Of a stretch of DNA of 64,000 bases, positions 1 through 55,869 are shown in pieces. Positions within the stretch are counted from its first letter, which is position 1; each line of letters opens with the position of its first letter. Source of the DNA: Rhynochetos jubatus (Eukaryota; Chordata; Aves; Eurypygiformes; Rhynochetidae); the NCBI GenBank assembly GCA_027574665.1, contig CM050676.1:6128157-6192156 (forward strand), in the 5' to 3' direction. The notes below the pieces were generated by a model. The model did not search any database. It was not told the DNA's origin and saw only the letters and a list, made by a program, of their open reading frames with translations. A program made the translations under genes and the position numbers.

Positions 1-22372
<22,372 letters not shown>

Positions 22373-34640: not shown

Positions 34641-35962
34641 TGCGCAAATCCGAGCAACGTGTAACAGAGGGATGCTTTCCTCCTTGGGAAAGCGTTTCCC
34701 GCTGCACAGGCGAGGTGTGTTTGGTGGGATGGCTTTGGCATGGTGTGCCAGCATCCGTGTGCAGGCTCTGCTCTCTCCCTTTTGGCATCTCCCTAAGCCT
34801 GCTGCTGGGCATCCGCTTCCCGCAGCTGAGGTACCCGCTGGGTGGCACGTGAGGACGACCCTGCCCAATCCGCCTCACCCGCTGGGCACAGGACACCTTT
34901 CCTCCTTCAGAAGGTGCCTGGGAGCGCTGGCTGATCTCCCAGATGTGTTCACAGGAACTCTCTGTCCAATGCACACTCAGCCTTCTCTCCTCCCTTGTGA
35001 CTTCTCGTGTACATCATTGCCCAACCATTTCATTTGTTATCTGCAGAGCTATTTATTGGAAGGGAGAGATTTTAAGATGAGAGGTTCTGGTTTCTTCCTC
35101 AAGTTTTGTAGAACCTTTCCTCAGAATATTCTCTCTCCCCTCTCATCCCTTGTGTGCAACTATCTTGTTTTTGCTTTGCAGGAGCTGTTTGTTGAAACCA
35201 TAGCCAAAGATGCTTACGTGTACGCTCAGCAAGGAAAGAGGAAAACTCTGCAAAGGAAAGACCTGGGTAGGGGAACATATTCTGTGTATCCTTAGCAAGG
35301 CTTTCCTAGGATGGAGGATTTTTCCACCTGTCCTGTTATGATGAAGCAGTCGTGTGCTTCTCTTTCTTTCTCTGAAGATGGCAAAGAAAAACTACTCTTC
35401 TACCAAATATTATGCTAATAATTTCACATACCAGCTCCAAAACAAGTAAATCTCTTTGCAATTGGTCACTGTACTGTGATGTAAATTCAAATACTGCTGT
35501 TTGAAGCAGATGCCAATATGGAGTCGTTTATCTATGTTGATTATTTTCAATTTACATTGTAGATAATGCCATTGAAGCTATTGATGAATTTGCTTTTTTG
35601 GAAGGTGAGTTTCTACTTGGTTTCACTTGGTTTCAAAATTTTGTGTAATCTTCTTGGGAGAGAAAGAACTCGATCATTTGCAGAGCCCTCTGTTTCCTCG
35701 TCTTCAATAATTAGTAGTGGTGTAACTTGTTATGCTCCTCTGAGTGGTGAAACACAAATCGAATGAACCCTGAGACACATACGATGCTTTCTAGCTAGAT
35801 TTGGTTTCACTTGTGTGTGATTTGCTTAAAGTTTAAAGAGTTACTGCATGGTCCTTTGGCAGCTTGTAAACAGGTGTCATTTTTTCACATTACTGCATTT
35901 CTGATTCCTGCAACACTCATTTATGGTTGGGATTTTTTTCATTTTTAGGTACCTTGGACTGA
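33731..35962 (+). CDS. POLE4: DNA polymerase epsilon subunit 4
   Basis: POLE4 is a histone-fold accessory subunit that pairs with POLE3 in the nuclear leading-strand DNA polymerase epsilon. Four exons are in phase: 33731-33940, 35182-35266, 35563-35604 and 35949-35962 (TGA at 35960-35962), giving 116 residues against 117 in human. A variable Ala/Gly/Pro-rich N-terminus of about 37 residues is followed by the histone fold: RLPLARVKALVKADPDV, ELFVETIAKDAY, QGKRKTLQRKDLDNAI and EFAFLEGTLD at the C-terminus. All splice sites are GT-AG. The last exon holds only four codons and the stop. The ATG lies inside the CpG island. Confidence 0.97.
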
Positions 35963-37500
35963 GCTGGACAGAGACATAGCTCTCTAGAGAAAGAGACTGT
36001 AGAGATGGACATGGGGTGGAAAACAGGACATTGAGAGTTCAAAAATACTTCCTAGAATCGAAATGCTGAAATAGCAACCGTAATATTTTGTATAAATCTT
36101 AAGTTGTTGTAAGTTCTTTATTTAAAATGCATATTTTTTCATAAATATTTTGCATGTCACTGAACTGTGCCCTGCTGCCATGGAGCAGACTGCTCTCCAG
36201 CTTTGGCCAATGACAGCAGTTGCTCAGAGCAGTGGTCCCTGCCTCTCCAGGTGCTCTGTAGCACCACAGTGATATGAATGGAGAGTGGCCTGGCTCAGAT
36301 GCCAGACATGCTGAATATTTTTTTTACGGAAATGTATTTTTATTTGTATATGTTTGGTTTTTTTCTTGGAAGAACACAATTAAATTTTGGGGTTGTTTTT
36401 TGTTGTTGAACAGCTGTCCTGATTTCTCCTCTGTTGTGAAGGGGATGGTGTTCTGTAGCACTGTGGTAAATGGCATAGTTTGGACAGGATGCCTTCTAAT
36501 AGTATTTTGCTTTTGCTAAATGTTTCCTCAAGGCACCTATCCCAGTGAAGCCTAGCTGTCCTCCAGGAACTACTCTGAGCTACAGGGAAACTTGGCTTGT
36601 TCCTAGGGGCATACAGCTTCCATAAATTTGTGATTGGTGCACCTGTAAGTAATTGTAGCCAAAAAAACCCCCAAAGCCAAACCCCCTCTTTTGAACACAA
36701 GTGGTGTCAGATGCATTACACTGCCACCCCTGTTCTCGTGTGCACTCTGTTTCCTGAATCTGGCCAAAAAAACCTCCCTGGGAGTTGGATCTCTTCCCTT
36801 CCACATGCCCAGTGGGTGCAGAGATCCCAACCTCTGTAATTCAGAGCCACAGGCAGCAAGTGTTCAGCACATACTTGGCGGGTGTGTCTGCAAGAGTCCG
36901 TTAGGGCACACAAGCAACCATCTGTGCCTCTGCAGTTTCCAGGACTTGGGACACTAGTCCTTCCCTATGTGGATTTAACACACTAGGAAGAATGATGCCT
37001 TCCCTTGGCTCCAGGGCTCACTTGGCAAACCCAGAGCTGCAGGCCTCTCTCTCTGTGGGGTCGTGGGGAGCATGCTGTCATTGCTGATGAGGCTGAGTCC
37101 TACCGTGTTGTCATCTCTATCAAAAAGCCAGCTTTGCCTTCGTTCTGGTGGTGTGAGGGACAAAAGAGGGTTGGCTCTAGATAAAAAGGTCATTGAATGC
37201 AATGAGTGAGGGTGAAGGGTGCATGTTCTTTTCAAAGGGGGGGACTTGAAAGTGACTCCAAGTCACCACAAACTAAATTCGTTTGAAAGTGGAGGTAGGA
37301 ACAAAGACTCCCAAAGGAGCTTCCCCAGGCTGGGAGCAAAATCAGTTGCTCTCATGAAGCACTTTGAAGTTTGGTCCAAGCTGATCCCCACAGACACGTG
37401 GGAACTATGCCATCACTGCCCAGGCTGCTAAGGTGTTTGTTCAGTTCACAATCTGGAGACAGATGCTGGCGATATGCAAACCAATTTGTCTCGAGCTGTT
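35963..37500. other. POLE4 3' UTR and intergenic stretch
   Basis: An A+T-rich 3' UTR with several near-consensus poly(A) signals (for example ATAAAT near 36140 and ATTAAA near 36380) is followed by about 1 kb without a recognised feature. Confidence 0.5.
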
Positions 37501-37566
37501 CACCTTCTCACCTGCTGAGGGAGGGCCCTGGATAAGTATCGGGGATACTGAAGACCAAGGTGCAGT

Positions 37567-40500
37567 ATGCAGCACCCGCTAGCCACAGTCTTCTTCGCAG
37601 GGCTCTTGCATGCTCCCGTCTTTGCCGGTAAGTTCCTTTTTGCCTTCTGGTTGTCTTTGGCGCTGCTTTGGCCTCTTGCATAGGAGAGAAAAGGGCTTGC
37701 GTTGTGGGTGTGTGGTACGATGCTGTGTGTGGGCTTCGCTCGTACCTGGTGCTTCTGTATAGGCATGGTGTATGTTTTGTATGGTGCCTCAGTGTGAGCA
37801 GCACGGAGGATTGTCAGCATGGGGGTTTGTCTTGGAGGAAGATGCCGTGCAGAAACCTTTGGTGAGTTTAATGCCTGTGAGCTGCTTTGTGCTGTGTGGG
37901 ATTACTCCCCTTACCCGAACTCACACTGCAGTACTGTGGAAGTAGAAGAGAGCAGGGGACTGATGTCCTAAGATAAAACACTGCTGAACGCAGCCTTTTC
38001 TTGGAGTAATGAATCTGATAGGGTGTTTGGCCCAACTAGCAGGTCTGAGAGGTCAAATGGGTCATGTCCATTTATAACTACTATAAACCTCTTCCTTGTG
38101 CTGAAGCCTTTTGGTTCAGGGTGGCAGGTGGCTGGAGACCTTGTGCTCGGCGTGCAGTGCTTCCTCTCAGCTCAAGCAGGAAAGATGAACTGTTATTGGA
38201 GTAGGCTGGGCTTGATGGTTTGTGACTGCAGGTGCCAGAGCCATCAACAGAGAGGACAAGCAAGTGAACCTGTTTGCAGAGAGGGGCTGCTGCAGGAGGC
38301 AGAGCCATTTCCTCCACGTTGGGCGCGGTGAGTCTGGGCCCTTCAAGCTTCCCCACTCATGTCCTGCCCATCATCCCTCTTTATGATATTTCTTTATGTT
38401 GAAATTATGGTAGTGACTTCTCCCTCAGGGGGTTAAGGACAGAAATACTCTGGGGACTTGTCACCCACATAACACAACACTTAAAGCATGTTTTGTAGAA
38501 TAGGAGCTGATGAGTAGCCTGGCCCCTGGGTTTGTTCATCTGCACAAAAGAGCTTTCATTTCCTTTACCAGCGGGCTGCAGTGTGGTTGAATTCTGTGTT
38601 TGCCTCTGTCTGATACTGCATGAGTTAAAGACTACCGCAGACTTGTCGTTCCTAGGATTAACGTTAGAAGGTCTGTCAGAAAGACAACTGGCTTTACTGT
38701 GCGGAGAAAGTCAGAAACGGCTCCATTTATTCACCAAAGTCTGTGGCCTTCAGGAGCAGCCTTCAGTCTCAGTTCCCTTCACAGCAGTAGTAAGGCTACT
38801 TAACACGAGCTTCAGCTGCTTTTAGTGCAGATATGTGAAAGTGCCCTTAAACGGTCTGGCTGAAAGTCTGAGGCTTTTTAGGGTTTTTTTCAGTGCATGA
38901 GAGCAGTACTTGTACACATTTAGCATTCAGTGTTTGCAAAATATCAGGTTCTTACATGAATAGTAGGAATTATAAAATTATAAGCAAATTAAGAACTGTC
39001 AGAAGCAGTGACAGCTTGTCACCTCCAGAGGAAACAACTTCAAAACAGTAAATAATGATGAAAATAAGAAAAATAGTGATGAAATTACTAAGTATTGCCT
39101 GTATTGCTGTGGAGATGGGAGAACAGGGGTTAACAGTGTCTTCAGCTGGCAGTGTAGTGTCCTTTGAAAAGTGACCAGCTGTCTTCGCCCTTGCTGCCGG
39201 TGAGGAGCGTCCACAGGCATCACCACCTGGGAAGGGCTGATAGCAGTTTGGAGTGTATCTGGCTTACTCCGCACTCGCTTGCCTGGACAAAGAAATCCTC
39301 AGGCAGCTAGCAGGAGCTACAACCGGAATGTGAGTTTAAAATGCCCCTCCGTATTTCCTGGTGTCATGCAGCATGGTGATGATGGTGGCTGTCTTTAGCA
39401 CTGACACTGAAAACAAGTGTTTAAATCAATGCAGAATTAAAGTTTTGCAGCACACACTGGGTCTGCGACTCCAGCAGGCTAAAGCAAATTACAGTGCTGT
39501 TAAACTACTCAGTGGGCATTTTTAAGGCCAGTTTTGTTCCCTATTATATGGTGAAGTGAGTATTTACATCAGACAACCCTTCAGTATGGACAGCACTATT
39601 GAGGAACCAGCTCACTTTAGACAGATTTTCAGATGGAACCTCCATTAGGCAGTGACCACTGATAGTTCACAAACTCAAAATGTAGCAGAGTAAACCGATT
39701 TAACCCTGGATGCCACGGTCCAGCATTTCTCCCGGCCCCCCACCCATTCTCACCTTCCTGCCCTCTGCCCTTAGCGCTAATGTGGCAGTGCCACAGGTCT
39801 GGGGACCTGTGAAACTGGGATTTGGCAGGGGGAGGGGCAGAATTGTTTCAGCTGAAGCAGCTCCATGAACAGGTTCATCAGGCTCTAGGTAAGGGGGGCT
39901 GTGTTTCTCTTCCTGCCCTGAGTCCACTGGGTGCTCAGGCCGGTTTGGTACATCTGAGGTCTGCAGTTCAGCAACAGCTGAGTATTCACATTTTCCCTTT
40001 GCCAATCTATGTACTCATCTATTCTCACTCCATCCTTCATGAGCTCAGTAAATAATATAAACCCTACTGTTTCCTAGTGAATTTTTAATGGCATTCTTTT
40101 TATTCTGTAGTACACTTACAAGTCTGTTATGACTACTGAAGGGCTTTCTGGGATTTCCGCAGGTGCTCAGGGTGGAGGAATGTCCCTTGCAGACAGGCTT
40201 TCAGGGCAGACCATGTCTTTTTCTTCAGTGTTAGTGTTCTACTTGGCCCTGGTTTGAACTTGGGCCTCCCCAGCATCATGTAAGTAGTGAGGAGTGATCC
40301 TTTTGTCAATCCTGTGTTTCACAGACGTCTCTGGCAGTCCTGTCAGCATGGATGTTGGAAAGTGCTGGTCCAGTTGCCTGTCCCAGCAGATCATCTCCCC
40401 AAGCCCTGGCCTCCTAGGGCTCTCCAGACACTCCTCCATGCTTGATTTCCTTAGAAGCAAGAAGGTGAGAAAAGTGTGTTTGTGTCATCCCCATGACAGG

Positions 40501-41754
40501 AGCAGCTGGGTCTAGGTGGAGGTCATACACTGGTGCCTGGAGCTGTGATTTTTGTACATATTTTAAAATACTTGTTCTTGTCTTCTGCCTTGCAGAAAAC
40601 CCATCCCTGAGCCTCTTGTCCTCCCTTAGCCAGCAAGCAGTGCGATATGCAGGCTAGACAAATGGAAACTACCCAGCAATGCTGGATACCTCGAGGCAGA
40701 CGAAGGGTCAGAGTTCAGCTGAAGGGCTATCACAGCTGCTCCAGGCATCAATCAAGCATATTTCTGCCCTCCCCAGCCCAGCAGCAAGACCAACTCAGCC
40801 ACATATGCTGTATCTCCAATATGTGAAAGCTGGTGTCCTATATGTAGAGGGGTTGGAGGCCTTTTTTTGCCTAGTTGAGCAAAACTGGCAAGACCAGTGA
40901 TTTCATGATGAATATCTGGCCTTTGAGGTGCTTATGTCGTTCCCTTCTTACATGCTATGTGTCACTCCTAGGAGGACTAGAAGGAGCCTGTGCATTTGGG
41001 GCACAGCTGTGCACAGACTGTGATCTCTCCTTATCCTGGAAGTGACATTGCCTAAAGTCCCACCTCCACCAGGATAACTAACTCTGGAGAGGGAATGGAA
41101 ACAAACTCTGCATAGTGCTTGCACGTGTGTGTCCTGTGAGTGTTCACCTGGGTAACTGTGAAAAATCCTGTTGCCACTTGTCCCACTGTTGTCACCATTG
41201 TGGCATTGGTGGTGCAGCATCTTCCAGGTGGGCAGGTCCATATTCATTCCCTGGAACTGTCATCACACGGGTCTTCCCAGTCAGGAGCCTGGGCTGAAAC
41301 AAGGGCTGCTTTAGCCAGTACAGTTCTGAGGTTGTAGCAGGGGTTTGAGGAATAAACAGTTTTGCTATCACTGTGTCACTGGAAAGAGCACCGCCACAGC
41401 AATGCATCGCTGCCAGGCAGGGAGAAAGGAGTAAAAGCTGAGTCAGCTCTAGGTCAGAAGAGGTTTTTATCAGGGAGCTGGTGGTGGAAGTTGTTCTCCG
41501 TGACCTGTTTTTACCAGTGTGTATGCCACTTGCCGCCTTCTGCCCAGCTCCAGGTCCAGCACCCCAACTTGTCACTGCGGCCGGGAGCCCCACGCTCCTG
41601 CCCTGTGGGTTCCTGCTGCCAGCCTGCCCGCGTGCATGTGGAGTGTGTCGTGCTCTTCCAAGGCACTCGGGAGGTGGAGGTGATCAATGGCTGTCACTGC
41701 AGCACATGCTCTGAAAACCTTCTTTTGAGACTCTCCCTGGGAGGTCACAGTTGA
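37567..41754 (+). CDS. Small secreted cystine-knot-like protein (candidate Pinhead-type gene)
   Basis: Five exons keep one open frame: 37567-37627, 38232-38327, 39829-39888, 40325-40464 and 41548-41754, with GT-AG sites and phases 0-1, 1-1, 1-1, 1-0 and 0-stop (187 residues). Exon 1 is a signal peptide (MQHPLATVFFAGLLHAPVFA). The mature part is basic and cysteine-rich. SMDVGKCWSSC and the C-terminal VEVINGCHCSTC are the spacing seen in C-terminal cystine-knot growth factors and antagonists. An AATAAA lies at 42046-42051. It stands about 6.5 kb upstream of ADMP on the same strand. I do not recognise the sequence as a specific named protein. Pinhead is the family I would test first, because it is a secreted cystine-knot protein linked to Admp in other chordates. 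Confidence 0.65.
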
Positions 41755-42045
41755 CGTGGGGAAATGCTCCAACCTGACCTACAGTGCAGGTGTGGGAATG
41801 ACAGAGAGCTCCCTCCCTCCCTCCAAGAATATGAGGATGAGCCCTTCTGTGTCACCAGCACCAACATCAGAGCTCAACGTGATCTAGCAACACTCCAGCC
41901 TGCTGCACAAGCCCTCCTTGCCTTCCGTGGGAAGGGGATTGTATTGTATCCTGTCAAGGTCTGGGTTTTCTTTCCCCTTCTGTTGCAGGACAGGTCTGCA
42001 AGTGAAATCTTAATTCTCTGCCCCTGTGCATGGTGTGAGGAGGGA

Positions 42046-42051
42046 AATAAA
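42046..42051 (+). terminator. Poly(A) signal AATAAA of the upstream cystine-knot gene
   Basis: Canonical AATAAA about 290 bases after the stop at 41754, fitting a short 3' UTR. The 215-codon open frame across this stretch is therefore not needed as a gene. Confidence 0.6.
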
Positions 42052-42097
42052 ACCACCTTGCGTTGCAGGAAAGGGTCTGATCATATGAACTCTGATC

Positions 42098-42175
42098 ATA
42101 GCATCAGAATAACCAAGACTGGGAAGGACCTCAGGGGCCTCCACTCCAACATCCCCACTGAAAGCAAGGAAAACA
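42098..42175 (+). mobile_element. CR1-like remnant
   Basis: AGAATAACCAAGACTGGGAA followed by GGACCTCAGGGGCC resembles the diverged CR1 3' region. Only about 80 bases are recognisable. Confidence 0.4.
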
Positions 42176-44580
42176 ACCTGCGGATAAAACCTCTACTGGA
42201 AACAGACCACTTAGCAACCACTAAAAAAATTGGTTTCCTTTCTGGTAGTGTGAACTGCCCTTTCATCTCAGCACCAGTGAATGACACTGATGTTTCAAAA
42301 ATCACTCAGAAATGGGAGCTCCAAGCTAAATCGTTCCAGACAGGTCAGGGCAAACCTTCCACTGGGATAAAGCTGAATTGGTTTGCCCTGAACTGGTGTG
42401 CTGTCTTGTGAGTTCACACATAAAATAACCCAAGAGTCACATCAGTGAAGATAAGCTGATCTCTTTCTATCGGAATGGAAAGTCCTCTGGAAATGATTTT
42501 CCACAACGGCTTGATAGAATCAGTTCTCTTGGAATTTGTTGATGTCATTTTACTGGCATTTCTGCATCCCGTTCAAACCTTCCCGGCAGCTCCTGTGACA
42601 GGGCTGTGCAACAGCCACTAGAGAGGGACAGAGACCAACGGGTGTCCCAACGTGAGCCGAAAAGGCAGCCAAGTGGCCTGACCTAGAGAGGCTAGGGCAG
42701 CCGGATGGGTGGCTGAGGGAACAAACCCCAGGGGCTCTGCTTGTGGATCTGCGTCCCACCCTCCAAGAACTGGAGGAGGGTCCGCACCCAGGCATCGGTG
42801 CTCCCGCAGCCCTGCGGCTCGTGTAACCCGGTGGCAAGACACGGCAAGTGGAAAAGAAAATTAGTCAGTGTGAAGTGCTTTTTTCTAGAGGTGGGAGAAT
42901 CAGCATTTACTTCCCAGACGTGTGACTGGAAGGTGCTGGACGATGCTGTTGTCCCCAGGGTGGCTAATGGACTGTGGCTTATTCGGCGATAATGGCTCGG
43001 GGCTGGGAAATGTGGACTCGCCCCCAGTTTTGCCTCTGCCCTAGGGCAGGTCTCTGCACTTTCCCCTGTAAAGTCAGGCTGACACTTGAGTGTCATGTTA
43101 AAGACTGGACACATCAGGGCAGGGAGGGCTGGAGAAGGACGTTAAAATCTCACCCAGAAATACTGGTTTCCAGAAATCAGTTGTCATCTTGTGTCCCCCT
43201 CTTCAGGCATCCCAGAGAGGTTTGCTTTCAGTAACCACTTTTCAGTGTACTGACAGCGCAGCCCCATCCTGTAAGAAAGAAATCTCCAGCAGCTGATGAA
43301 GTAGCTGGGAAGGGGCAGGAAACTCTCACAACCAAACACAAACCCTGAAGGACCCACACCCAGGGCCTGGGACAGGGCCAGACTAGGTACTATTTAGAGC
43401 CAAAACTAAGGCTGATTTAGCGGTCAACCTAGCAACCCTCCTGCCCTGCCATGCAATGGAGATTTTAATCCTAATTTACTTGGTGGAAAGAAAAGCTGAG
43501 AGGTTTAGCAGATAAACTGTTTTTTTCTACGCAGATCATACATTCAAACTGTCCTGTCGGGCAGGACAGCCTGTGCCTGTTTCCTTCCAAGTAGACAAGA
43601 GTCTTTGCTGGAGCAGCCTCTGTCTGTTCTCTTGAGCTGCTGAGCTCCTGCCTGGGCCAGCTGGGACCTGCCACGGAGGTGATGTGTCCTGGCCTGGAGG
43701 CGACATGTCAGCGAAGATGTGGGGTTTTGGTCTGTCCACCCAAAACTCCCCTTCACCCTGATCTGTGCATGGCTCCTTAACTGTCAGACAAGGTATGTCA
43801 AATCCGAATGTGACCTATTTTTGCCCAGAGAATTTTTCATTGAGTTAGAGCTTGAATAGGGAAAGAAAAGGCAAAGCAGGACTTGGTCCTGCACCCCCCA
43901 GAACCAGGGCCATTGCCTGCCCTCCCTTTCCTTCCCTCTGATACCAGCCTTCCTCAGTCCCACAGCGAAGGGACACAGATGTAGTAGCTCATGCAGCCTC
44001 CATCACCCCAGCCCTAGCCAGCTCTTCTTGCAGTGGAGAGCTAAGAGCCCAGCCCAAAGCAAGTCCCTGGGAGGTGCCTGGGGGAATATCTCCAGGAGAG
44101 TCATCTGGCTTCAGCATCCAAGAAGACCCTGGCAAATCCAGAGAGAAATGCTGAATTAATTAATGTTATGTAATGTTCCGCAACTCCCTGGTGTGAGCAT
44201 GTGTCTCTGGAAAAAGTGCTGCCGTGAGCATTTTACGTTCCAAGATAATGTGTAACAGCTCAGGCTGTCTCCCCAGAGATGGGGCTTTCACAGGGCCAGG
44301 TACAGGACTCACAATTTGCGCCCAGAATAACCTCACTTTGCTCTGTGGTCTGAAACCGAGATGGAGGAACAAAACCTATCACTGAGGCCCTGAGCTGGTG
44401 AAGGACTGAGCCCCAGACTCTCAGCTGGGGACCCTCACGCAGAAAACAGCATTTCCCACACCAGGTGCTGGATGCCGGAGCCTGACGCTGTCTGCACTGC
44501 ATGGCAGACAGTGGTGAGGACACTGCAGCCACGGGTGGCCTACGTGCAGCCCCAGCTTGTATTTTCTTCTTTCCTTGCAG
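42176..44580. other. Intergenic stretch between the two cystine-knot genes
   Basis: The 5' exons of the second cystine-knot gene probably lie here. An ATG with a hydrophobic start (MEILILIYL at 43457) could be a signal peptide, but its splice donor is not convincing. A cysteine- and Trp-containing frame on the minus strand near 42700-42810 is discussed among the rejected items. Confidence 0.35.
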
Positions 44581-46510
44581 GTGGACTTTTCTGTGTGCCC
44601 ACGAAGTTCAACACTGCTCTAGTCAAAAGCCCACAAGGTGAGGAGATGCTGAGAGAACAGTGAAATGAAGGAAAAATGCTATCGAGTTTCCCAGGTGGAA
44701 TATTATTATGAAATTGTGCACAGCTCTGCGGGATACAGAGAGAAATGGCTCAAGGTTGGTTTCCCAAGGCTTGGCCTCCTCTGTGGTAGGCTCAGCTGAG
44801 CTGGTGGGTCCACATGTGGGATTTGAACAGCAGGTGGATGCCCTGACATGGGAAGTTTCACCCTGGTAGAGCTAAGCACACACTGGCTACTAACCATGGT
44901 GGAAAAAATCTTACATTCATATTATTTTATGCTATAAAATATACTGCCACTAATTTGTGTATGCATCAGTGCCATAAATTAGCAAATGGCCTTTTCTTTG
45001 GGGTGAGGATTTCTTTAAAAAATAAGGGAGTAATGAGATAATTATTAAAAAAATTATTTAATCATTCAGTATGTCTTAAGCTCAGTTCAACAGAGACTGT
45101 ACTCTCTCCTTCAGCATAGCTTTTGTGCACAGGAACCTCTGGCTCAGAAAACACTGGTGTGCCCCCAAAATACTGTTCCTTAGAAGCTCTGTGGCGCTGG
45201 TACCCTTTCGCAGGGGTGTGCATTCAGGCTGAGGATGCAGGGTGGGCAGAGGGCAGAGTGACTGGCATCTACCCTGGGGTGTCCCCAGTGAAGGGCTGCA
45301 GGGGATTTTCGTGCCTTTGTTTTGCAAATCTTTGCAGGAAATTGATGTGGGAAGGTGCTTGGGCAGCTGCTCCTCGGGGGATCCCTGCTTGCTTAGGTAA
45401 GCACAGCTGCCACGATCCGGCAGTTCTCATTCCGGGGCACATCCGCACGCATCCAGTGGAAGGTTTGAGCTGTTCCTGTTCCTCTCAAGTAATGCATCTG
45501 CTGCTCCTGGGGCAGGACCTGGGAGGGTAACACAGGAGCAGATTCTGGGTAGCACCCACAGCTCAACCTCTGGGCTGTGTCTGACAGAGAGCGTAGGGAG
45601 GCATTGGGACACGTTGCCCAGAGAAGCTGTGGATGCCCCATCCCTGGCTGTCTTCAAGGCCAGGGTGGATGAGGCTTGGAGCAACCTGGTCTAGTGGAAG
45701 GTGTCCCTGCCCATGTCAGGGGGTTGGAATTAGATGATCTTTAAGGTCCCTTCCAACCCAAACCATTCTGTGATTCTATGATAACCATGTAAGGACAAAG
45801 CTGAAGCAGAGCAGCAGTTGCAGTGGTGTTGCAGTAGTGTCGCTTCAAGGGATAAAGAATAGCCTGCCAACGATGATGTTGAATTCAGCCTGTTGGGCAG
45901 CTGGTTACAGAGTCTGTGGTCCCCCATGAGAGCAGACACAGATGAGAAGGGGGTCCTGGCAGTGGCTTTCTCTAGGCTGGGATGTGCCATTCCTACTCCC
46001 CACCTGCAATGCTGCCAGGCAGGAGGAGCAGGAGGAGGAGGGGGATGCTCTGGGGTAGGGTTGGTCCAGACAGTTGTTTCAGGCCAGGGAGGCAGCACTT
46101 TGTGTCACTTGCAGACACAAAAGCATGGCAAATGCAAAGGGAAGCAAATAAAACAACAAAAAAAGACATAATCCCTGCTTTGCACAGGCAGAGAGGGAGG
46201 AGACAGTTCACTGAGTTACACCAGGAGTAAGGAATAGATGCTGCTGGGAGAAAGCTGCCTTCCTTCCCACCCCCCTGCTCTGGGGCATCGGCCCCGTTTC
46301 CAGGTGATGAAGCACAGGGCCCCTGATCATGGGGGGCAAGGGACACACTGGATTTGTCCATCTGCAGGGAGTCACAAGGAGAGAGATGTCGGATTTGGTC
46401 AGAAGCTGCCTTCAGCCTCTGCGCCTCACCAGTACGACGTACACACATTCAGGAGCTGCCGAGACTGTGTTCGCATCGTCATTGTCATCCGCCAGTGCAA
46501 GTGCCAGTAG
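44581..46510 (+). CDS. Second cystine-knot secreted protein, partial exon set (Pinhead-like candidate)
   Basis: Three exon candidates face the same way as ADMP. Exon 44581-44637 (phase 1-1) codes GLFCVPTKFNTALVKSPQ. Exon 45338-45396 (phase 0-2) codes EIDVGRCLGSCSSGDPCLL after a strong acceptor (TTTTGCAAATCTTTGCAG). The terminal exon, probably 46368-46510 (phase 1 to stop), ends YDVHTFRSCRDCVRIVIV then IRQCKCQ-stop. Codon third positions in the last exon are mostly G or C in this frame, and AATAAA lies at 46599-46604, about 90 bases past the stop. The C-x-G-x-C and final C-x-C spacing is that of a C-terminal cystine knot. The exon phases do not join as listed, so at least two linking exons or different splice sites are missing, and the start exon is not found. 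Confidence 0.5.
45590..45784 (+). mobile_element. CR1 LINE 3' end
   Basis: Plus-orientation CR1 sequence with CATTGGGACACGTTGCCCAG upstream and the standard end TTAGATGATCTTTAAGGTCC, then CATTCTGTGATTCTATGATA. It is a short 5'-truncated copy of about 190 bases lying between exons of the second cystine-knot gene. Confidence 0.9.
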
Positions 46511-46598
46511 CAGGGCTGGAGAGCTGCAGGTGGGGCTCCTGCAAGACCCTCGCCAGACTGTCTGTAGTATATGTAAATGAGAGAAGGCTAGTTTTTTG

Positions 46599-46604
46599 AA
46601 TAAA
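46599..46604 (+). terminator. Poly(A) signal AATAAA of the second cystine-knot gene
   Basis: Canonical AATAAA 89 bases after the TAG at 46508-46510. A second AATAAA follows near 46664. This supports the reading frame chosen for the terminal exon. Confidence 0.6.
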
Positions 46605-46669
46605 AGCTATTTAAACAGCGCTTGTATAAATGAACCCTCTACAAAATGTTTAGCGGCTTGTAAAATAAA

Positions 46670-48140
46670 CATCATGGGCAATTCACAGCTCCTTGGGGCT
46701 CTGCTGTGCAGCTCCCTCACCCCTCGGTCTGCTGAGCATCCCCGGAGGATGTGGAGGGATGCGGAGGGATGCCGCTGTCTGGCATGGGCTGGGTGTCGTG
46801 TGGACCTGCGCTGCTCCCATTTGCAAAATGTGGAGCAGGAGTCGGCGAGGGGAGGGAAAGAGGTAAATGGGCATCTTGGGACAGAGATGTCACGTCTGCA
46901 GGCAGCCCCAGGCCCACCAAGCCTTACCCTGTAGGACGCGCCTCTGCAGCTTGTGAGTTGGCAAGAGGAAGGAAAGGATCCAGAGGATACAAATAGTTTC
47001 CTCTATCAATTAACTCAGGCCTGTCATTGCCTCTCTGTCTATTCTGGATAATTAACAGGTCTTTCACCCACTGAGAACTGGGTTAGAATAAATTACAGAC
47101 ACCAGCTGGGCAAGTGGTGTTCAGCTTGTCTCCTGTCGTGTTGGCCTGAAAGTGCTTTGGCCAAGCACCTGCAGGTCTGGGCAGTGCAGCTCCGTCCCTG
47201 CCAGCAGGACAGACGGGCGGTACTGGCTCTGCTCCTGCACCTTCTCTCTGTGCCCAGCTGCTCACAGCCCGTACCCATGGGCCTCCTTCGCAGGTGTCCC
47301 TGTTCTCTCTAAATTCTAAGAGGCTTTTCTAATCCCAATCTTTCTGTCTGATGCACGGGCAGGTATTGTGTAATGCTAGTTTTTTCCATTCAGTCACATG
47401 GCATTGGAAGAAACAGCAAATGCAGAGTCCAAGTGTCAACATGTCCACCCTCACCAACCCAGTTTCTCCATGATTGGGGAACAAAAGGAAAAGCGTTGGC
47501 TTTTATCCTGTCACCCGCAGTCCATAGGGTTCATTAATATCAAGCATTCAGGAATTAGCAGTAAATGCCTTTTAATCCCCAGGAAGCCAATTAGCTATTA
47601 AAAAAAAAAAGGCAACTTAATTTCAGTTGGGTGCCTTCTGCTCCTGAGCCCTCACCATGGCCCAGCAGCACTGTGGGCAGAAGCTGCAGCCCCCATGCTG
47701 CTGGTTCTCTGCTGGAAATGTGCCTTGCACTCCGGGATCGGCTCACCCGGCTCCTTTCCACGGGTGTTGCACTGGGGAGCACTGGGGGAGGCACAGCCTG
47801 GGCTGCCCTGCTGGTCCAGCCCACTCCAGCGGCCTCATTCCTCCACACAAAGGTCCTCCTGTTTGTCCCATTAGTGCCATCATTACAAACCAGTTAGTCT
47901 CCTACGAAGAGCAAACGTAGCCCAGCCTTGCCGAGGCACCCCCCATGGGCCCAGACCCCCGTGTCCCCTGCCAGCCCCGGGGAGCGCCGGGGTGAGCCGT
48001 CCTCCCGTCCGCTTGTGTACTGGGGCTAATTGGTGCAGGGGGCCCCGGAGCCCAGCTTCGCACCTTGTTAACATGGCAATTAGCTCTTTTTACCCTCCTG
48101 ATCGCTCATGTGCATATTTGACTCCACTCCACCTTTCCAG
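46670..48140. other. Upstream region of ADMP
   Basis: About 1.5 kb between the poly(A) signals of the second cystine-knot gene and the ADMP TATA box. No coding exon is supported. The last 100 bases hold A+T-rich motifs (GCAATTAGC near 48074, ATGTGCATATTTG near 48109) that could bind homeodomain or POU factors; this is only a suggestion from sequence. Confidence 0.35.
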
Positions 48141-48144
48141 TGAG

Positions 48145-48152
48145 TTATAAAT
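48145..48152 (+). promoter_or_regulatory. TATA box of ADMP
   Basis: TTATAAAT lies 52-59 bases upstream of the ADMP start codon, within the run CCAGTGAGTTATAAATGCAG. This predicts a transcription start near 48175 and a very short 5' UTR. Confidence 0.7.
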
Positions 48153-48203
48153 GCAGCGCTGGGGCGGCAGGAGGAGTCAAGCTGGAGCAGGGATAGCAGC
48201 ACC

Positions 48204-50621
48204 ATGCTGGGGATTGTCCTGCTGCTGCTGGCCCTGGCCAAACTGGCGTGCCCGAGTCCAGCTGGTGTGGCCAGTCAGCGGGCTGAGGCGCTGAAGAGGC
48301 TCTTGGAAGTTTTTGGCATGGAAGACCCTCCGCCCCCCCCAGCTCACTTCAAGCAGCCACCCCAGTACATGGTGGACCTATTCAACACTGTTGCCAACGC
48401 GGATGGTGTCACCAAGAACCCCGACATCCTGGAGGGCAACACGGTCCGCAGCTTCTTAGATAAAAGTAAGGGTGCTGCCCTGCAGTGCTGGGGGTGGGGC
48501 TGCAGGAAAGGGCCAAGCATAGCCAGTAGAGGGGCTGCCCCCAGTTTGGCTCCGCTTCCCAACCTGTCCTTCCCTGCAGCTCACAGCGAGAAGATGCGTT
48601 TCTTCTTCGTACTCTCCAGCGTGGCCAAGAATGAGAAGATCCTGACAGCAGAGCTGCACCTCTTCCGCCTCTGGCCAAGGGTCACTGATGGGCACAAAAG
48701 GCACCACTTCTGCCAGGTGAGGAGGGGACAGGAATGGGATGGGGATGGGAATGGGGATGTGCCCCAGCTGGTGCCTGGGGATGCCACTGCAGTCACTCAT
48801 CTGCAGCAGCCCAGCTCCATCCAATTCGTACGACCCAAGTGTCTCTGCATTGCCCAGAGAATCTCAATGATTTAACTACAGCGGTTTCTTAAATAACACT
48901 CTGGTTTGTGCACACACCAACCAAGGCACCCACAGGTTTGTGACAAATCCAAGCTGAAAAATCCCATCTCCCACCTTTCTTTTTGCCTAGTACCTACGTC
49001 CGGGGTCTTTTCTCTCAGGCAGGACCAGCTGGTGGTAACCATCCTTTGCTGCCTTCCCCAGGTCAGCGTCTACCAAGTGCTGGAGAAGAGTGAGCCGGAC
49101 GCCCCCGGAGGGAAGAAGCTCCTGGCAGCCAGGCTCATCTCGCTGCAGGGCTCGGGCTGGGAGGTCTTTGCTATCACACAGGCTGTGAGCAGTTTTCCCC
49201 TCATTCGGGTGGCACGGGGTGGGGGGCCCAGGGGCTTGCATGCTGGAGGTTTTTTTAACTTGTTTTGCCCCCAGCGGCCTTTTGGGCTCTGATGCAATTT
49301 GCTGTCATACTCTCTGCAGCAACGTGGGGTGGGATACAGCCTCTGGGAGGGGGGTAAGAGCCTTGACAAGAGCCCCGAGGGGCTTCTCTGTCCTGCTCGA
49401 CACCGGTCCCACTGCTCCACACGTAACACCTGTGTTGGCTCCTGCCACACTGTTCCCTGTGCCACAGCCTTGGAGCAGCATGGCCCCTTCCCACAGCTGC
49501 CAGGACAGTGCCCAGGGCTGGGGGATGGAGCGTGGTGGTGAGGGGTCCTGTTTCAGGCTGCTGCGCTGCTGACAGGGCACCAGGTCTGCTGGCCTGGCAT
49601 CTGCCATTGGGACACTGGCCTGGGGCCTGGCCTGTGGTGCCATGGTGACACCGGTTTGGTTCCCCAGGTTCATGACTGGACCAAAGATGAAAGCAGCAAC
49701 CAAGGTTTGCTGGTGACAGTCCAGGACCTGGGCGGGAGCCCGCTTGACCCTCCCCCACTGCAGTTTGCATCAGGCAGGGACCACCATGAGAGCAAGAAGC
49801 CGATGTTGGTCCTGTTCACAGATGACGGGCGCCGGGGAGCGTCCCTGCCCATGGCTGGCTTCCCAGGTAGGTCCCACATGCCCTGGCATAGCTCCCTTGG
49901 TACTGCCATCCCCTAACCTGAGGGGGACTGTCATGGGCTGCTTCAAGTCCAAAGCTCCTTCTTCAGCCAGAGGAAGAGGCCATCTCCTTTGCTAGCGTAA
50001 GTCTGGATTTTGCTTGCCCTGATGAGTGTGGCCATGGGGCTGTGAGGTTGTCACCTCCTGTGGCTCTGCCTGGGCTGGTGACAGGCTGTGACCAAAGGAC
50101 TCGCTACAGCAGATGGCCACAGACAAAAGCTGCAGGGAGGGGCGGCTACGATTCTTTCTCCCTTCTTCCAGGCTTATGCAATGGTTAATGTCATTGGGTC
50201 TTCATTTCTGGCAGATGTACAGTCTCAGGCTGCCATTTTGCCTGCCAAGATGCCAGTGCCCAGGTTGGCTGGGCCACGCAGCACACGCTCGCTAGACCGA
50301 CTCCAGCCGTGCCAGAGGCATCCCTTATCTGTGGATTTCGAGGAGATCGGCTGGTCTGGCTGGATCATCTCGCCGCGAGGGTACAACGCCTACCACTGCA
50401 AGGGCTCCTGCCCCTTCCCACTGGGTGAGAACATGCGGCCAACGAACCACGCCACTGTGCAGTCCATCATCAATGCCCTCAAGCTGAGCGAGGGCGTCAG
50501 CAGCCCCTGCTGTGTGCCCGACAAACTCTATTCCATCAACCTGCTCTACTTCGACGATGATGAGAACGTGGTCCTCAAGCAGTACGATGACATGGTGGCT
50601 GGGAGCTGCGGCTGCCACTGA
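48204..50621 (+). CDS. ADMP: Anti-dorsalizing morphogenetic protein (BMP-class ligand)
   Basis: ADMP is a secreted TGF-beta superfamily ligand expressed in the organizer that signals through BMP receptors and balances dorsoventral patterning. Five exons are in phase: 48204-48465, 48580-48716, 49062-49184, 49668-49866 and 50215-50621 (375 residues). A signal peptide (MLGIVLLLLALAKLACPSP) starts the protein, followed by a prodomain of about 250 residues. A furin-type site RSTR precedes the mature domain, which carries all seven knot cysteines (PCQRHP, YHCKGSCPFP, SPCCVP, GSCGCH-stop). VDFEEIGWSGWIISPRGYNA and the VLKQYDDMVAGSCGCH tail fit ADMP better than BMP2/4/7. In exon 5 the acceptor at 50214 keeps phase; the AG at 50172 does not. 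Placental mammals lack this gene. Confidence 0.93.
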
Positions 50622-52950
50622 GACAGGAGGGGCCGGAAGGCAGAAACGTTGCTCCCTCTGGAGCATCTCTGCAGGGGTCTCTGCCCCGCAACCCCCTGCA
50701 AAAGGTTTGCAGGGTGAGCAAAGCAAGGGGTTGTCCAGCTCTGCCCTGGGTGGCATCAGCCTGGTAGTGCCTGGGAAGGCTCAGTGCCGACCTCTGACTG
50801 AATCAACCTGAGTGAGCCCGCGCGACTTGGCAGCCTCAGGGCAACAGCTTCATTTTTGGGTGCCCTGTGTGAGGTGCAAGTTTCCTTGACCCTGTGGAGG
50901 CTTCCCACAGGCTGTACTATATATATATGTATATAGCAAGAGCACTAATATATGACAGAAACTGCCTGTACAGTGTCCTGTAAATGTCTGTACATTTCTG
51001 CATTGTTGTGGCATATAAAATGAATTCAGAGGAACTACTGCACGTGCCACTGCGGGCAAGCAAACACCCTGCGGGCGTAGGGAAGGGTGTTGCAAGCAGG
51101 GATGATGATTTGCTGGATGCTGAGCCACATTCCTTGGAAGCTGAATGATCTCAGAATCCATCAGTGTGTGTGTGTGTCCCCAAGCAGGCAATGGGGGCAC
51201 GTGAGGGGATGCAGTGCCAGGGTCTGGGGGTGAGGAGTGTGGAGGTGATGCTGCTGGGGCGGGTGGGTGGCAGGGAAGGCCGGCTCTCCATGAAGATGGC
51301 CAGAGGAGGCTGCACCATGCACAGAGGGAAGGTTCCTTGTGGGAGAGAAATGGCGCGGAAAACAGAGCTGACCAGTGTTGTGGGGTTGGGCTGGGGCATA
51401 CAGAGGAGGGGTGTCCGTATGCGTACCAGAGAGCGGGTGGAGGTGCTGGGGACCAGGGCAGGGCTCCCTGTCTCATGCCCACTGGCACAGTCCCCTTGTC
51501 CCCTGCAGACCAGGACTCAGTGGGAGCATAACTATCCCTGCCAGAAGGCTCAGTCCCTCCAAGCCTCTTTCCAAGAGTTTTCAACTGCAGCAGCTTAACT
51601 GTGGTCCCACGTTGACACCACGACCATTCTGCCCTACACCCCCAGCAGCTCTTCATCTCCTGGCCCAGCTTGCAGGTGACCAAATCCCACCCTGACCAGC
51701 TGGGTACCACTTTCCTCCCACTCTTTAGCCAAAAGCAGCAGCCACCGCTGTAAGCCCTTCCCCATCACAGGCTGCCCTGCAGCCTGGGGTCTCTCTCCGC
51801 ATGCCACCCAGGGGAGGGTTGAATCCCCCCTGGGAGCCCATTGACTGGATATGATTCCACACCAGAAGGCCCCACAGACGTGTCCCCCACTGCCCTCCCC
51901 CCCCCCACCTCCCCCCCACCCCCTGCCCCGATGTGAACACAGGGCAGAGCCAACCAGTATGTCCTGAGCACATGCAGATGCCCCAGCTCCTTTTCGAACA
52001 CACTCAGGGCCAGGCACCTCATGGTTGGCCAGGCACCAACATGCAAGGCAGGCTCACCTGCATCCCACCAGAGCCCCCTCTTCCCATCAATGGGCAGGAG
52101 AGGTGATTGTGAGCCCTGGGGAAGACGTTCCTTCCTCACCCCTGAATTATGAGCGGTTTACTGAATTACACAAAGTGGCTGGCCAATAATCCAAGACAAT
52201 GAAAGGTTTTGGCTTGGTTTATTAAATGCCTGTTCCTGGGGATGCTCTGGCTGCCAGCTCTGCACCCCCAGGGTGCCATGGTTCCCTTCACAACAGCATC
52301 CCAAGCCAGGACCATAGCCCAGGCTCCCAGGGCAGTGGGAAGGAAAGTGGGTTTTGCTGGAAGGATGCACGGCTGCAGTCTTTTCTGTGGACCTTCACTG
52401 AAATCCCTATGCTGGTGTCAGCCTGGGCTGAATGCCTGCCCAGCTGGGAAGGACTTGTGGGAGAGCCTGTGTATGTCCCACTTAACCCAGGAGCAGAGAA
52501 GCGCCTGTGCAGGTGTCACACAGGGCTTCATCTCATCATGGGTGTCCACTTCTGCCATCCTCAGGAGGGTGACAGAGTCCAGCTCCATGCATCCCTGTGT
52601 CCTCAGGGTGCCCCATACCCCAGGCCATGACAGACAGACATCCTGCCTTTTCCATACAGTGTGGTCCTTAGCTGGACCTTTATTGACTGCTCCGCAGGAC
52701 AGCAGGCTCCAGCATGCAATAGTCAGGAAGGTCCCAACACCGTCATGGGCACATTTCCTCCCTCCAAACAGCTTGAGCTGGCAGCGGCACCTGCATGGCA
52801 GCAGCCCCCCACAGATGCTGCTGTGACTTGCTGCTCTCTGCCCAAGCCGTGGAGCCTTCCCAGGGGACAGGAGCTGCTGGAGGAATGGACAGGCTGGAGG
52901 GCAGGACACATCATGGTAGAGGGGGTGTTGGGGAGGTGAAGGGCTGGTGG
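50622..52950. other. ADMP 3' UTR and convergent intergenic region
   Basis: ADMP and the KCNV2-like gene converge here. It holds a TA-rich run (TATATATATATGTATATA near 50919-50936), a short TG repeat near 51164-51176 and a C-rich run near 51894-51925. No gene was recognised. Confidence 0.5.
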
Positions 52951-55855
52951 TCAGTGGTGACAGCGAGGGTCAGCTCTGCAGCACCCCAACAACTTCCGCA
53001 GGACTCGCTCCTTCAAGCGGATCCTCCTGGATAGCTTGAGTGAGTGGCTGGTCTCATTCTCATGGGCCTTCAGCTTGGCATAGTAGTCAGAAAACTTGTT
53101 GTAGAGGATAGAGATGGGCATGCCATTGAGGATGATGCCAAAGGAGATGCAGCCAAATGCCACCATCCTGCCCAGCACTGTGTCGGGCACAATGTCTCCA
53201 TAGCCCACAGTGGAGAGGCTGACCTGGGCAAGGAAGGGAAAGGATAAAAACCTGCATGAGCAAGCCCTGCAGACCCTTCCTAATAGTGCTGGGATCCATC
53301 TTCCTCTGCCCCTGCGTGGGAGCCGGGTATCACCTGAGAACAGCACTGTAGCTGCAGCCAGCTGGGCTGTCCCTGCTCCAGCAGCCTGCACAGCCAGGGC
53401 TCAGTTTCCTGGGCTGCACCCAGAAAGGGCTGGATGAGGCCCCACCAGCAGAGACCAGAGGGAAGCCTCCCTGCTCCCTCCCCCCCTTCATGTCTGCCTC
53501 TTCAGAAACTGGACATCACTGGGCTGAACTTTCCCCAGCAGCCAGACTGTCTGCTGGAGCTTCCTGCCCCATGGAGCAACAGCTCCGGTGCTTCCTGGCC
53601 CTAAGCTGCCCGGTCACACAGGAACGAGGCTTCCCGGACCCTCCCTCCAAGGGAAGCACTACCCAGGAATGCAGCCAGAGGAACGGCGTTTGGATGACAG
53701 GCGAGCAGGACTATGGGGACAGGGGGAGAGCCGAGGCAGAGGGGTTTGGGCTTTGCATGGAGCCATGCTCACCAGCGACAGGATCAGCCTGTGACATTTA
53801 AATACTCAAATCTGGTGATTTTGCTAAGTGATTTTGTACTTCCTTGAGGAGGGATGAATTTGAGGCAGGCAGCCTGTGGTGGCCAAGGGAGATTATAAGA
53901 ACAGAAATGATCTGTAGGATCATTTCAGCTGCAAATCAAAATGCCCTTGTAACCCCTGGCTTTCAAGTGCTTTAGCTGCTCCTCATCTCAGAGTTAATCC
54001 CAGGTTTATTATAGCACTCCGCTCAGCAGAGCTGCCAGCTCCCAGCACAAGCAGGGCAGCAAACAAGGGCACCTATCTCCAGCTGCAGCATGCTGCAGTC
54101 TGTGACCCCACCTGGGACAGGGGCTGAGGCACGGTACGATGATGTTTCTTTGGTTCTCACAGGCAGCCCTGGGTCCATCGGGTCAGCCTCACAAGCTCTG
54201 ACCCTCTCATGCCTCCTGAGCCCAGCTGGGCTGCAATGCTGCACTTGCACCAGGCCGTCCCACACGGCTGTCCCCATACCCATGGGTCTGAACTGCATCC
54301 ACTTGGGTCCCATAACAGACAAAACCTGGTCTGAGTCACATCCCCCTTGTCACTCACCCAGGCCTGGAGATTCCTAGGCCATCACCTCTGTCCCACCATC
54401 CTACCCCAGCACCAGCTTTTGAGCCTCTGAGCTCTCTGATTTTTCTTAGAGTGTGTGGGTCTCTTGGTTTCCCATTATTAAGCTGGTGGGAAGACTGGGC
54501 CCTTTTCTGCCTTCTAGCCAGCAGCAGTGGTGAATCCCTTGAACACCAAGGCTGCCTCTACTCCCCACCACACCCCTGTCTGGAAGAAGGTGCTCACACC
54601 TTACCGCTGCCCACCACCATGCGTAGGGGATGCTGGTGAAGTTGGTGCCTGGGACGTCGTGTTCCACTGAGTGCATGAGAGCGGAGAAGGTGAAGACCCC
54701 CATAGCGATGAAGAGGAAGAGGCAGCAAACTTGCTGGTAGCACTGGCGTAGGGTGAAGCCAAAGGCCCTGAGGCCAGTGGAGTGGCGTGCCAGCTTGAGG
54801 ATGCGGAAGATCCTCATGAGCTTGATGAGCTTGAGGACTTTGCCCAGCTTGCTCACATTCTCCACCTTGTGCAGTTCCTCATGGTAAAGCGTGTCCCCTT
54901 CATCCAGATTTTCAAAGAGGATCTGGATGTAGAAGGGTAGGATGGCTACCAGGTCTACAGCATTAAACGCTGCCCGCAAAAAATTCTGGAAGCTGGAGGA
55001 GGATATGAGCCGCATGAGGTATTCAGAAGTGAAGAAGATAGCACAGATCATCTCCAGCTGCTCCATCCATATCTTCCCTGTCTTGTGTTTCATCTCCTCC
55101 ACTGTGCTCAGTGTCATGCCCACGATGGAGATAAGCACAAAGAAGCTTGACATGACAGCAATGATCTTGGCTGGGACAGAAGAGTATGGGTTCTCAATGA
55201 GGTCCCAGACTGTCTTCCGAAACCGTCCCAGAAATTTGCCCTCAAACTGCTCTGCTGAGTCCAGAGGCTCCAGTTCTGCCTCCAGCTCCTTCTGTATTTT
55301 CAGGTACTCACTGAGCTCATCTTGCTTTTCCTCAAACAGGATCCGGCAGCAGTGTTGGGAGTATTTCAGATGGATTCCCCAGTACTCAATTTCCTCCACA
55401 AAGTTACTGGGGCATATCTCATCCATTATCCACAGGACCCCGCTGCAGTAGAAGTGGAAGATGTAGTGGAAAATTGAAGGATCTCTGTCAAAGAAGTACT
55501 CATTCTTCTGCACTGAGTAGTCATCACAGAGCTGTAGCTTCTTCATAGGATCTGTATAAAGGGCCAGCTTCCCAAGCCTGGTGATGGGATATCGGGCCAC
55601 TACCTTGTAAGCTATCTGGAACAATTTGCCACCCACATTAATGTTGAGCAAGTACTTATTCCTTTGGATGGGAGCCTCACTTTTCTCCTGGTTTCTGTCT
55701 GTCACATTCTGCATGGAGCTCCATTGCTTTACCAGGCTGTCCTGTGCAAATGGGATGTGGACTTCTTCTTCCTCCAGCGTCCGACAGCAGCTCTGGCGAT
55801 CTCCTATCTTCAAGCTGGCAGAGAGACTTGCACGCCTTGTCCCCAGCTGCCTCAT
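52951..55855 (-). CDS. KCNV2-like: KCNV2-like (Kv8) modulatory potassium channel subunit
   Basis: Two exons, 55855-54605 and 53223-52951, join in phase 0 to give 507 residues (human KCNV2 has 545). The product is a plasma-membrane Kv subunit expected to be silent alone and to modulate Kv2 channels. Visible parts are the T1 domain ([22 protein letters not shown]), S1-S3, S4 ([20 protein letters not shown]), the pore with TVGYGD split from S5 by the intron, and S6 [18 protein letters not shown]6 lacks the Pro-x-Pro hinge of conducting Kv channels and matches the Kv8.2 pattern. The start is ATG 55855; a GTG four codons upstream is not used. Human KCNV2 lies on 9p (bird Z), so in this neighbourhood a paralogue is more likely. 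The last residues RADPRCHH are unusual. Confidence 0.9.
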
Positions 55856-55869
55856 TGTTCCTGACACAC

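Follow-up and report, generated by a model that had tools for sequence, protein, structure and literature searches.

In Ciona, Imai et al. are said to have described, in 2012, a repression of Admp by Pinhead that acts in cis. In zebrafish, loss of pinhead results in more admp, and vice versa, and strong dorsalization occurs in the pinhead/admp double mutant only (PMC8034876, PMC8753366). A 2021 review states that no expressed Pinhead homologue has been found in birds (PMC8753366), and in chicken and finch KCNV2L has been described to share synteny with ADMP/CD320 (PMC3711925). Here we compare with these systems a stretch of 64,000 nucleotides from the bird Rhynochetos jubatus, referred to as the window, which carries Pinhead (PNHD) exons next to ADMP.

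A Pinhead gene between POLE4 and ADMP

The part of the window around PNHD contains the following features (positions are those of the window):

35176-35621, plus strand: exons of POLE4, the histone-fold subunit of DNA polymerase epsilon, the upstream neighbour (tblastn, Pfam)
37567-37627, plus strand: PNHD exon 1, containing the start codon and encoding a putative hydrophobic leader, MQHPLATVFFAGLLHAPVFA; donor gtaagt
38232-38327, plus strand: PNHD exon 2 (NLFAERGCCRRQSHFLHVG)
40325-40464, plus strand: PNHD exon 3, DVGKCWSSC, the first DVGxC segment
41548-41789, plus strand: PNHD exon 4, end of module 1 and second DVGxC segment, weak donor gtgtgg
42046-42051, plus strand: AATAAA within PNHD intron 4, 292 nt beyond the premature stop
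44581-44754, plus strand: PNHD exon 5 (GLFCVPTKFNTALVKSPQG...ENSEMKEKCYRVSQVEYYYEIV), weak donor gttggt
45338-45396, plus strand: PNHD exon 6, EIDVGRCLGSC, the third DVGxC segment
46368-46510, plus strand: PNHD exon 7, C-terminal hairpin ...RQCKCQ* (asterisk, stop)
46599-46669, plus strand: two AATAAA signals (46599, 46664) 3' of the last PNHD exon
48146-48151, plus strand: TATAAA upstream of ADMP
48204-50621, plus strand: ADMP, five exons, 375 codons, intact
52951-55915, minus strand: exons of a KCNV2L-like voltage-gated potassium channel, the downstream neighbour

The initial annotation had proposed an avian Pinhead-Admp locus in which two cystine-knot genes, marked by DVGKCWSSC at about 40355 and DVGRCLGSC at about 45350, precede ADMP, and had suggested that transcription of ADMP may be dependent on its neighbour or interfere with it. 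Both signatures lie in open exons of the plus strand with GT-AG borders (40325-40464 and 45338-45396). When exons 1-4 were joined and used as a query (167 residues, matches limited to at most 1.75 times the query length), ten proteins were matched, from birds and frogs and including one unnamed, and eight of them were 257-290 residues long. The profile A2, built from six relatives of this first exon set, retrieved 217 proteins with the X. laevis 'pinhead L homeolog precursor' as best match (E 4.0e-162); the best 120 of the 217 also included numerous fish proteins under the names pnhd or Pinhead. The search could have led to unrelated families; it placed the knot exons in the Pinhead family, which supports the proposed avian locus. 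At the level of single exons, exon 3 shared 80% identity with Falco and 82% with Nipponia across 49 residues, and exon 6 was 95% identical to Nipponia over 21 residues (tblastn). Exon 1 was matched by bird leaders only and aligned with the first residues of the Falco, Apteryx and Theristicus Pinheads.

The same comparison replaces the two proposed genes by one. In the tblastn matches listed, the predicted Pinheads of Falco, Nipponia, Apteryx and Anser matched both exon sets and the connecting pieces in order and on one strand, and X. laevis pinhead gave eight in-order matches across 37.5-46.5 kb (E 7.7e-15 to 4.3e-5). The connecting exon sequence is present in shifted frames at 41711-41789, with an extra DVGKC at about 41756, and at 44653-44754. 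As single bird Pinheads are colinear with both sets, the two sets form one gene: the second matches a part of Pinhead further along the chain than the first and provides neither a start of its own nor a complete knot protein. Judged from its sequence, the interval 37567-46510 is a single seven-exon gene, the PNHD ortholog, located between POLE4 and ADMP. GT-AG borders are retained on all seven exons, and the three DVGxC segments that members of the Pinhead family carry per chain are all present. The AATAAA signals previously assigned to each exon set do occur, at 42046 and at 46599/46664; as evidence of two 3' ends they are weak, since this signal is common here: the two strands of the window together contain 30 copies, compared to a mean of 13.3 in shuffled sequences.

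ADMP was found downstream as claimed, with five exons, a start codon 1.7 kb past the last knot exon and the predicted TATA box, TATAAA at 48146. Its last exon matched Pfam TGF_beta (6.2e-36), and the protein was 70% identical to the named ADMP of Latimeria and 66% identical, over the whole length, to that of X. laevis (P0236). By domain and homology it is an ordinary ADMP ortholog in which nothing unusual was seen. It also shared 93% identity with a Fregata protein that carries the label BMP2. In a tree of 56 bird sequences and alligator, the window ADMP grouped with two rails (support 0.865), and by distance Fregata was as near to it as the rails (0.117 vs 0.119); by this measure the bird may stand somewhere near cranes and rails. 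Bird ADMP-like matches (P0125-P0200) are mostly labelled BMP2, BMP2B or BMP4, and none is named ADMP among the bird rows listed.

On the upstream side, the predicted Nipponia POLE4-Pinhead fusion (P0014) matched the window at 35176-35265 (30 residues, 93% identity) and at 35559-35621 (21 residues, 76% identity) in tblastn, and both POLE4 pieces joined (44 residues) reached Pfam CBFD_NFYB_HMF at 1.7e-5. Such fusion models, named DNA polymerase epsilon subunit 4, occur in three birds, Nipponia, Phaethon and Fulmarus (P0002, P0014, P0025), and may reflect an annotation error or read-through splicing. On the downstream side, 366 residues of the large KCNV2L-like exon (54446-55915) matched Pfam Ion_trans (1.2e-27) and BTB_2 (6.7e-22), and the exon at 52951-53228 was assigned by eye; a neighbour of this kind agrees with the arrangement in chicken and finch. 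Further along, an LDL-receptor class A domain (61299-61724, minus strand, Pfam 5.7e-10) has a placement that fits CD320, the neighbour of ADMP according to PMC3711925. An exon of an SLC1A-type sodium:dicarboxylate symporter is located at 3828-4172 on the minus strand (Pfam SDF 1.3e-23). A search for RNA families in 36000-52500 gave none reaching gathering scores.

The linkage of PNHD and ADMP looks old, as the longest contigs carrying the two genes were equal in size, and hence taken as one contig, in 8 of the 11 cases with both genes among the matches listed. These were Falco (where the PNHD and ADMP cluster names denote different species), Fulmarus, Alligator, Eublepharis, Gekko, Heteronotia, Bombina and Rhinatrema; the sizes were unequal in Ascaphus, Anguilla and X. 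laevis (L versus S copy).

Lesions in the PNHD reading frame

A frameshift-aware alignment of exon 4 gave the same result with Apteryx and Nipponia as references. Following the codon that ends at 41709, 26 nt are lost (the PEECLRLPA codons, with one T left), and a TGA is present at 41726-41728 (LKTFF*DSPWE), where the references have Pro (LKTFFPDSPWE). Exon 5 bears a net loss of 8 nt near 44650, the placement of which differs slightly between the Apteryx and Nipponia references, as well as a conserved Cys replaced by Ser. Exon 7 lacks one codon plus a further 2 nt, with the same result for Apteryx and Balearica as references. Among the cysteines that are invariant in the alignment A3, the window copy has one Ser and one deleted residue. 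Neither a frameshift nor a stop interrupts codons 1-153 of the aligned frame, and all lesions were found beyond them.

The window copy has no open frame through all PNHD exons: joined as they stand, the seven exons run into a stop after 167 codons, at 41752-41754. Exon junctions follow at 35, 209 and 268 nt past this stop and, as two of them are more than 50 nt away, the spliced message would be expected to be degraded under the general rule of nonsense-mediated decay. The damage to the frame hid the connecting exons and made PNHD look like two genes. Added up, the losses that shift the frame in exons 4, 5 and 7 amount to a multiple of three, by which the last exon ends in the ancestral frame again, and the second exon set therefore looked open.

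We consider it quite probable that PNHD in the window is a fairly young unitary pseudogene, with three frameshifts and a nonsense codon, beside an intact ADMP. The lesions would destroy the part of PNHD that holds the second and third DVGxC segments and leave the adjacent ADMP untouched, so that full-length Pinhead protein would no longer be made. The embryo would then have lost the Pinhead side of the Pinhead-Admp pair and would depend on ADMP together with other regulators of BMP. A bird lineage with broken PNHD and intact ADMP, and with Pinhead whole in the predictions for other birds, would represent a natural single loss and may serve as a natural test of embryo patterning by ADMP alone.

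Age of the damage and alternative readings

Across 109 non-bird Pinheads, 64 positions are the same in 97% or more of the sequences. The window copy has 61 of these positions and departs from the consensus at 3, and seven clean birds depart from it at 1-3 of the 64. Its terminal branch (0.172) is the longest of 10 birds, the others ranging from 0.055 to 0.147. The few changes at conserved sites together with the longest branch suggest that PNHD was lost recently in this bird and that the pseudogene is fairly young. The closest match of the first exon set, Balearica regulorum LOC104643316 (P0001, LOW QUALITY PROTEIN; 77% identity over 80% of the query), is also flawed and is without the second DVGxC segment, yet it retains the residues removed by the losses in the window copy. 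The 26-nt loss is thus not common to Balearica and the window copy; for the 8- and 2-nt losses this is no proof, since annotators may have repaired a model of low quality.

Several observations count against a pseudogene. Differences at only 3 of 61 conserved positions are slight decay for a dead gene, the GT-AG borders are kept on all seven exons, and the restriction of all lesions to the second half also fits a retained truncated protein. We give a small chance to such a protein of 167 codons, consisting of the leader and the first cystine-knot-like segment followed by a short tail of new sequence, being still made and used. Its message would perhaps end at the AATAAA in intron 4, 292 nt beyond the stop, a signal that may be there by chance given its excess in the window. 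The undamaged first 153 codons speak for this reading; against it, four independent lesions would all fall into the last 52% of the frame with a chance of about 0.07 (hand arithmetic).

We compared both parts of Pinhead in 10 birds including the window copy, with 3 reptiles for comparison; the counts leave out the aligned Theristicus, Morphnus, Tyto and Prinia, and Phaethon and Alca were not in the input. The window copy showed 7 private residues among 121 in the first part and 16 among 150 in the second, compared to 63 and 58 for the nine other birds together. This skew fell short of significance (Fisher p 0.07, and 0.06 when the two low-quality models were omitted), and Nipponia and Balearica had ratios similar to that of the window copy. 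Its second-part branch (0.174) was the longest of the 10 birds, but its first-part branch (0.171) was also among the longer ones. A smaller comparison of first and second part agreed in direction, with 14 and 24 for the window, 13 and 14 for Falco, 16 and 15 for Apteryx, 23 and 9 for Fulmarus, and 24 and 16 for the duck family. The result leans towards some constraint on the first part without being significant. It is possible, though doubtful, that the broken PNHD has been kept in another role, either as a transcript that restrains ADMP in cis or as a short, secreted one-module Pinhead. If so, decay would spare the leader exon, the splice borders and the first module and affect the remainder, and the Pinhead-Admp see-saw would lack one arm as a full protein, not as a locus.

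An intact PNHD in the bird, with lesions that arose as errors of assembly or sequencing, appears improbable. The few substitutions at conserved Pinhead sites and the preservation of every splice border would agree with it, but losses of 26 and 8 nt, a TGA and a Cys-to-Ser exchange are atypical of read errors. In addition, the clean ADMP within the same window and the KCNV2L-like large exon, which is open for several hundred codons, argue against a generally poor assembly. Two separate cystine-knot genes, arisen by duplication in birds, are hardly credible in spite of two open exon sets with DVGxC motifs and an AATAAA after each, since single Pinheads of birds, reptiles and frogs hold both sets in order along with the connecting segments, these segments are present here in shifted frames, and no start exon was seen for the second set.

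Pinhead in other birds, its fold and its rate of change

Predicted full-length Pinheads with frames open throughout are found in Falco (P0012), Nipponia (P0014), Apteryx (P0019), Anser (P0028) and Neopelma (P0024). The window Pinhead can be aligned to them exon by exon, with 76% identity to Falco, 74% to Apteryx and 71% to Anser over aligned residues. X. laevis pinhead (P0011) belongs to the same family and shares the segment order and the three DVGxC segments per chain; it is complete (319 residues), whereas frameshifts interrupt the window copy in exons 4, 5 and 7. Among the matches listed there were 15 bird Pinhead rows. Seven were judged full-length and clean (Falco, POLE4-fused Nipponia, Apteryx, Pithys, Neopelma, Anser and Myiozetetes) and eight were incomplete, of low quality or unusual (Balearica, Fulmarus, Phaethon, Morphnus, Alca, Tyto, Prinia and Theristicus); the absence of a bird group from the best 120 of the 217 matches carries no meaning. 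Being mostly gene predictions, these entries indicate genes and not expression. In databases, the predicted full-length Pinheads appear under the names 'uncharacterized protein' or 'DNA polymerase epsilon subunit 4'. Birds do carry a Pinhead gene, unnamed or merged with POLE4 in annotations, which corrects the picture of its absence. Odd or missing segments were seen in the models of Tyto, Prinia, Alca and Theristicus (P0008, P0010, P0006 and P0091, respectively), hinting at further independent Pinhead damage in birds.

Pfam searches with exon set 1 and with exon set 2 in three frames returned nothing relevant. We also considered Pinhead as a TGF-beta domain protein by sequence and rejected this, as none of 40 members of A3 reached TGF_beta at 0.01. 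Stegastes P0051 matched TGF_beta at 1.6e-5 with 26.1 bits, below the cut-off of 27; P0051 and P0112 carry a precomputed PF00019 label, and A3 contains neither. A predicted model of Apteryx Pinhead was of middling quality (pLDDT 69, pTM 0.45). Its structural matches were cystine-knot growth factors and antagonists, some for each third of the chain (Z at most 7.0, Foldseek E at least 0.09). When the chain was split into three modules at borders hand-chosen from the model, DVGxC fell on columns 24, 24 and 26, and module-versus-module comparison by hhalign gave E values of 0.001-0.002, compared to 0.17-0.6 in column-reversed controls, with aligned cores of 8-19 columns and probabilities of 13-21%. 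A triple tandem-knot architecture of Pinhead is plausible from these models, as a lead only.

The ratio of PNHD to ADMP distance was 1.86-2.71 among Falco, Apteryx, Fulmarus and the duck family, and 2.61-3.27 between the window and these four. Alligator and turtle gave 1.02, a pair of geckos 1.90, crocodile or turtle versus gecko 1.60-1.80, and two amphibian pairs 1.34-1.60. In some cases Pinhead and ADMP were taken from different species within a group (Anser with Aix, Dermochelys with Lepidochelys, two Falco, two Apteryx). By these distances, bird PNHD is faster relative to ADMP, clearly so compared to crocodile and turtle, and this is not unique to birds.

The window also holds remains that resemble mobile elements. 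Retrovirus-like open reading frames (gag-, protease-, reverse transcriptase-, RNase H- and integrase-like by eye) are present at 13333-18491 on the plus strand, and an open reading frame at 1650-2618 on the minus strand resembles, by eye, the reverse transcriptase end of a CR1-type element. Within PNHD intron 6, positions 45590-45790 resemble, by eye, the 3' end of a CR1 element, with the CR1-like motif ATTCTATGAT at 45773.
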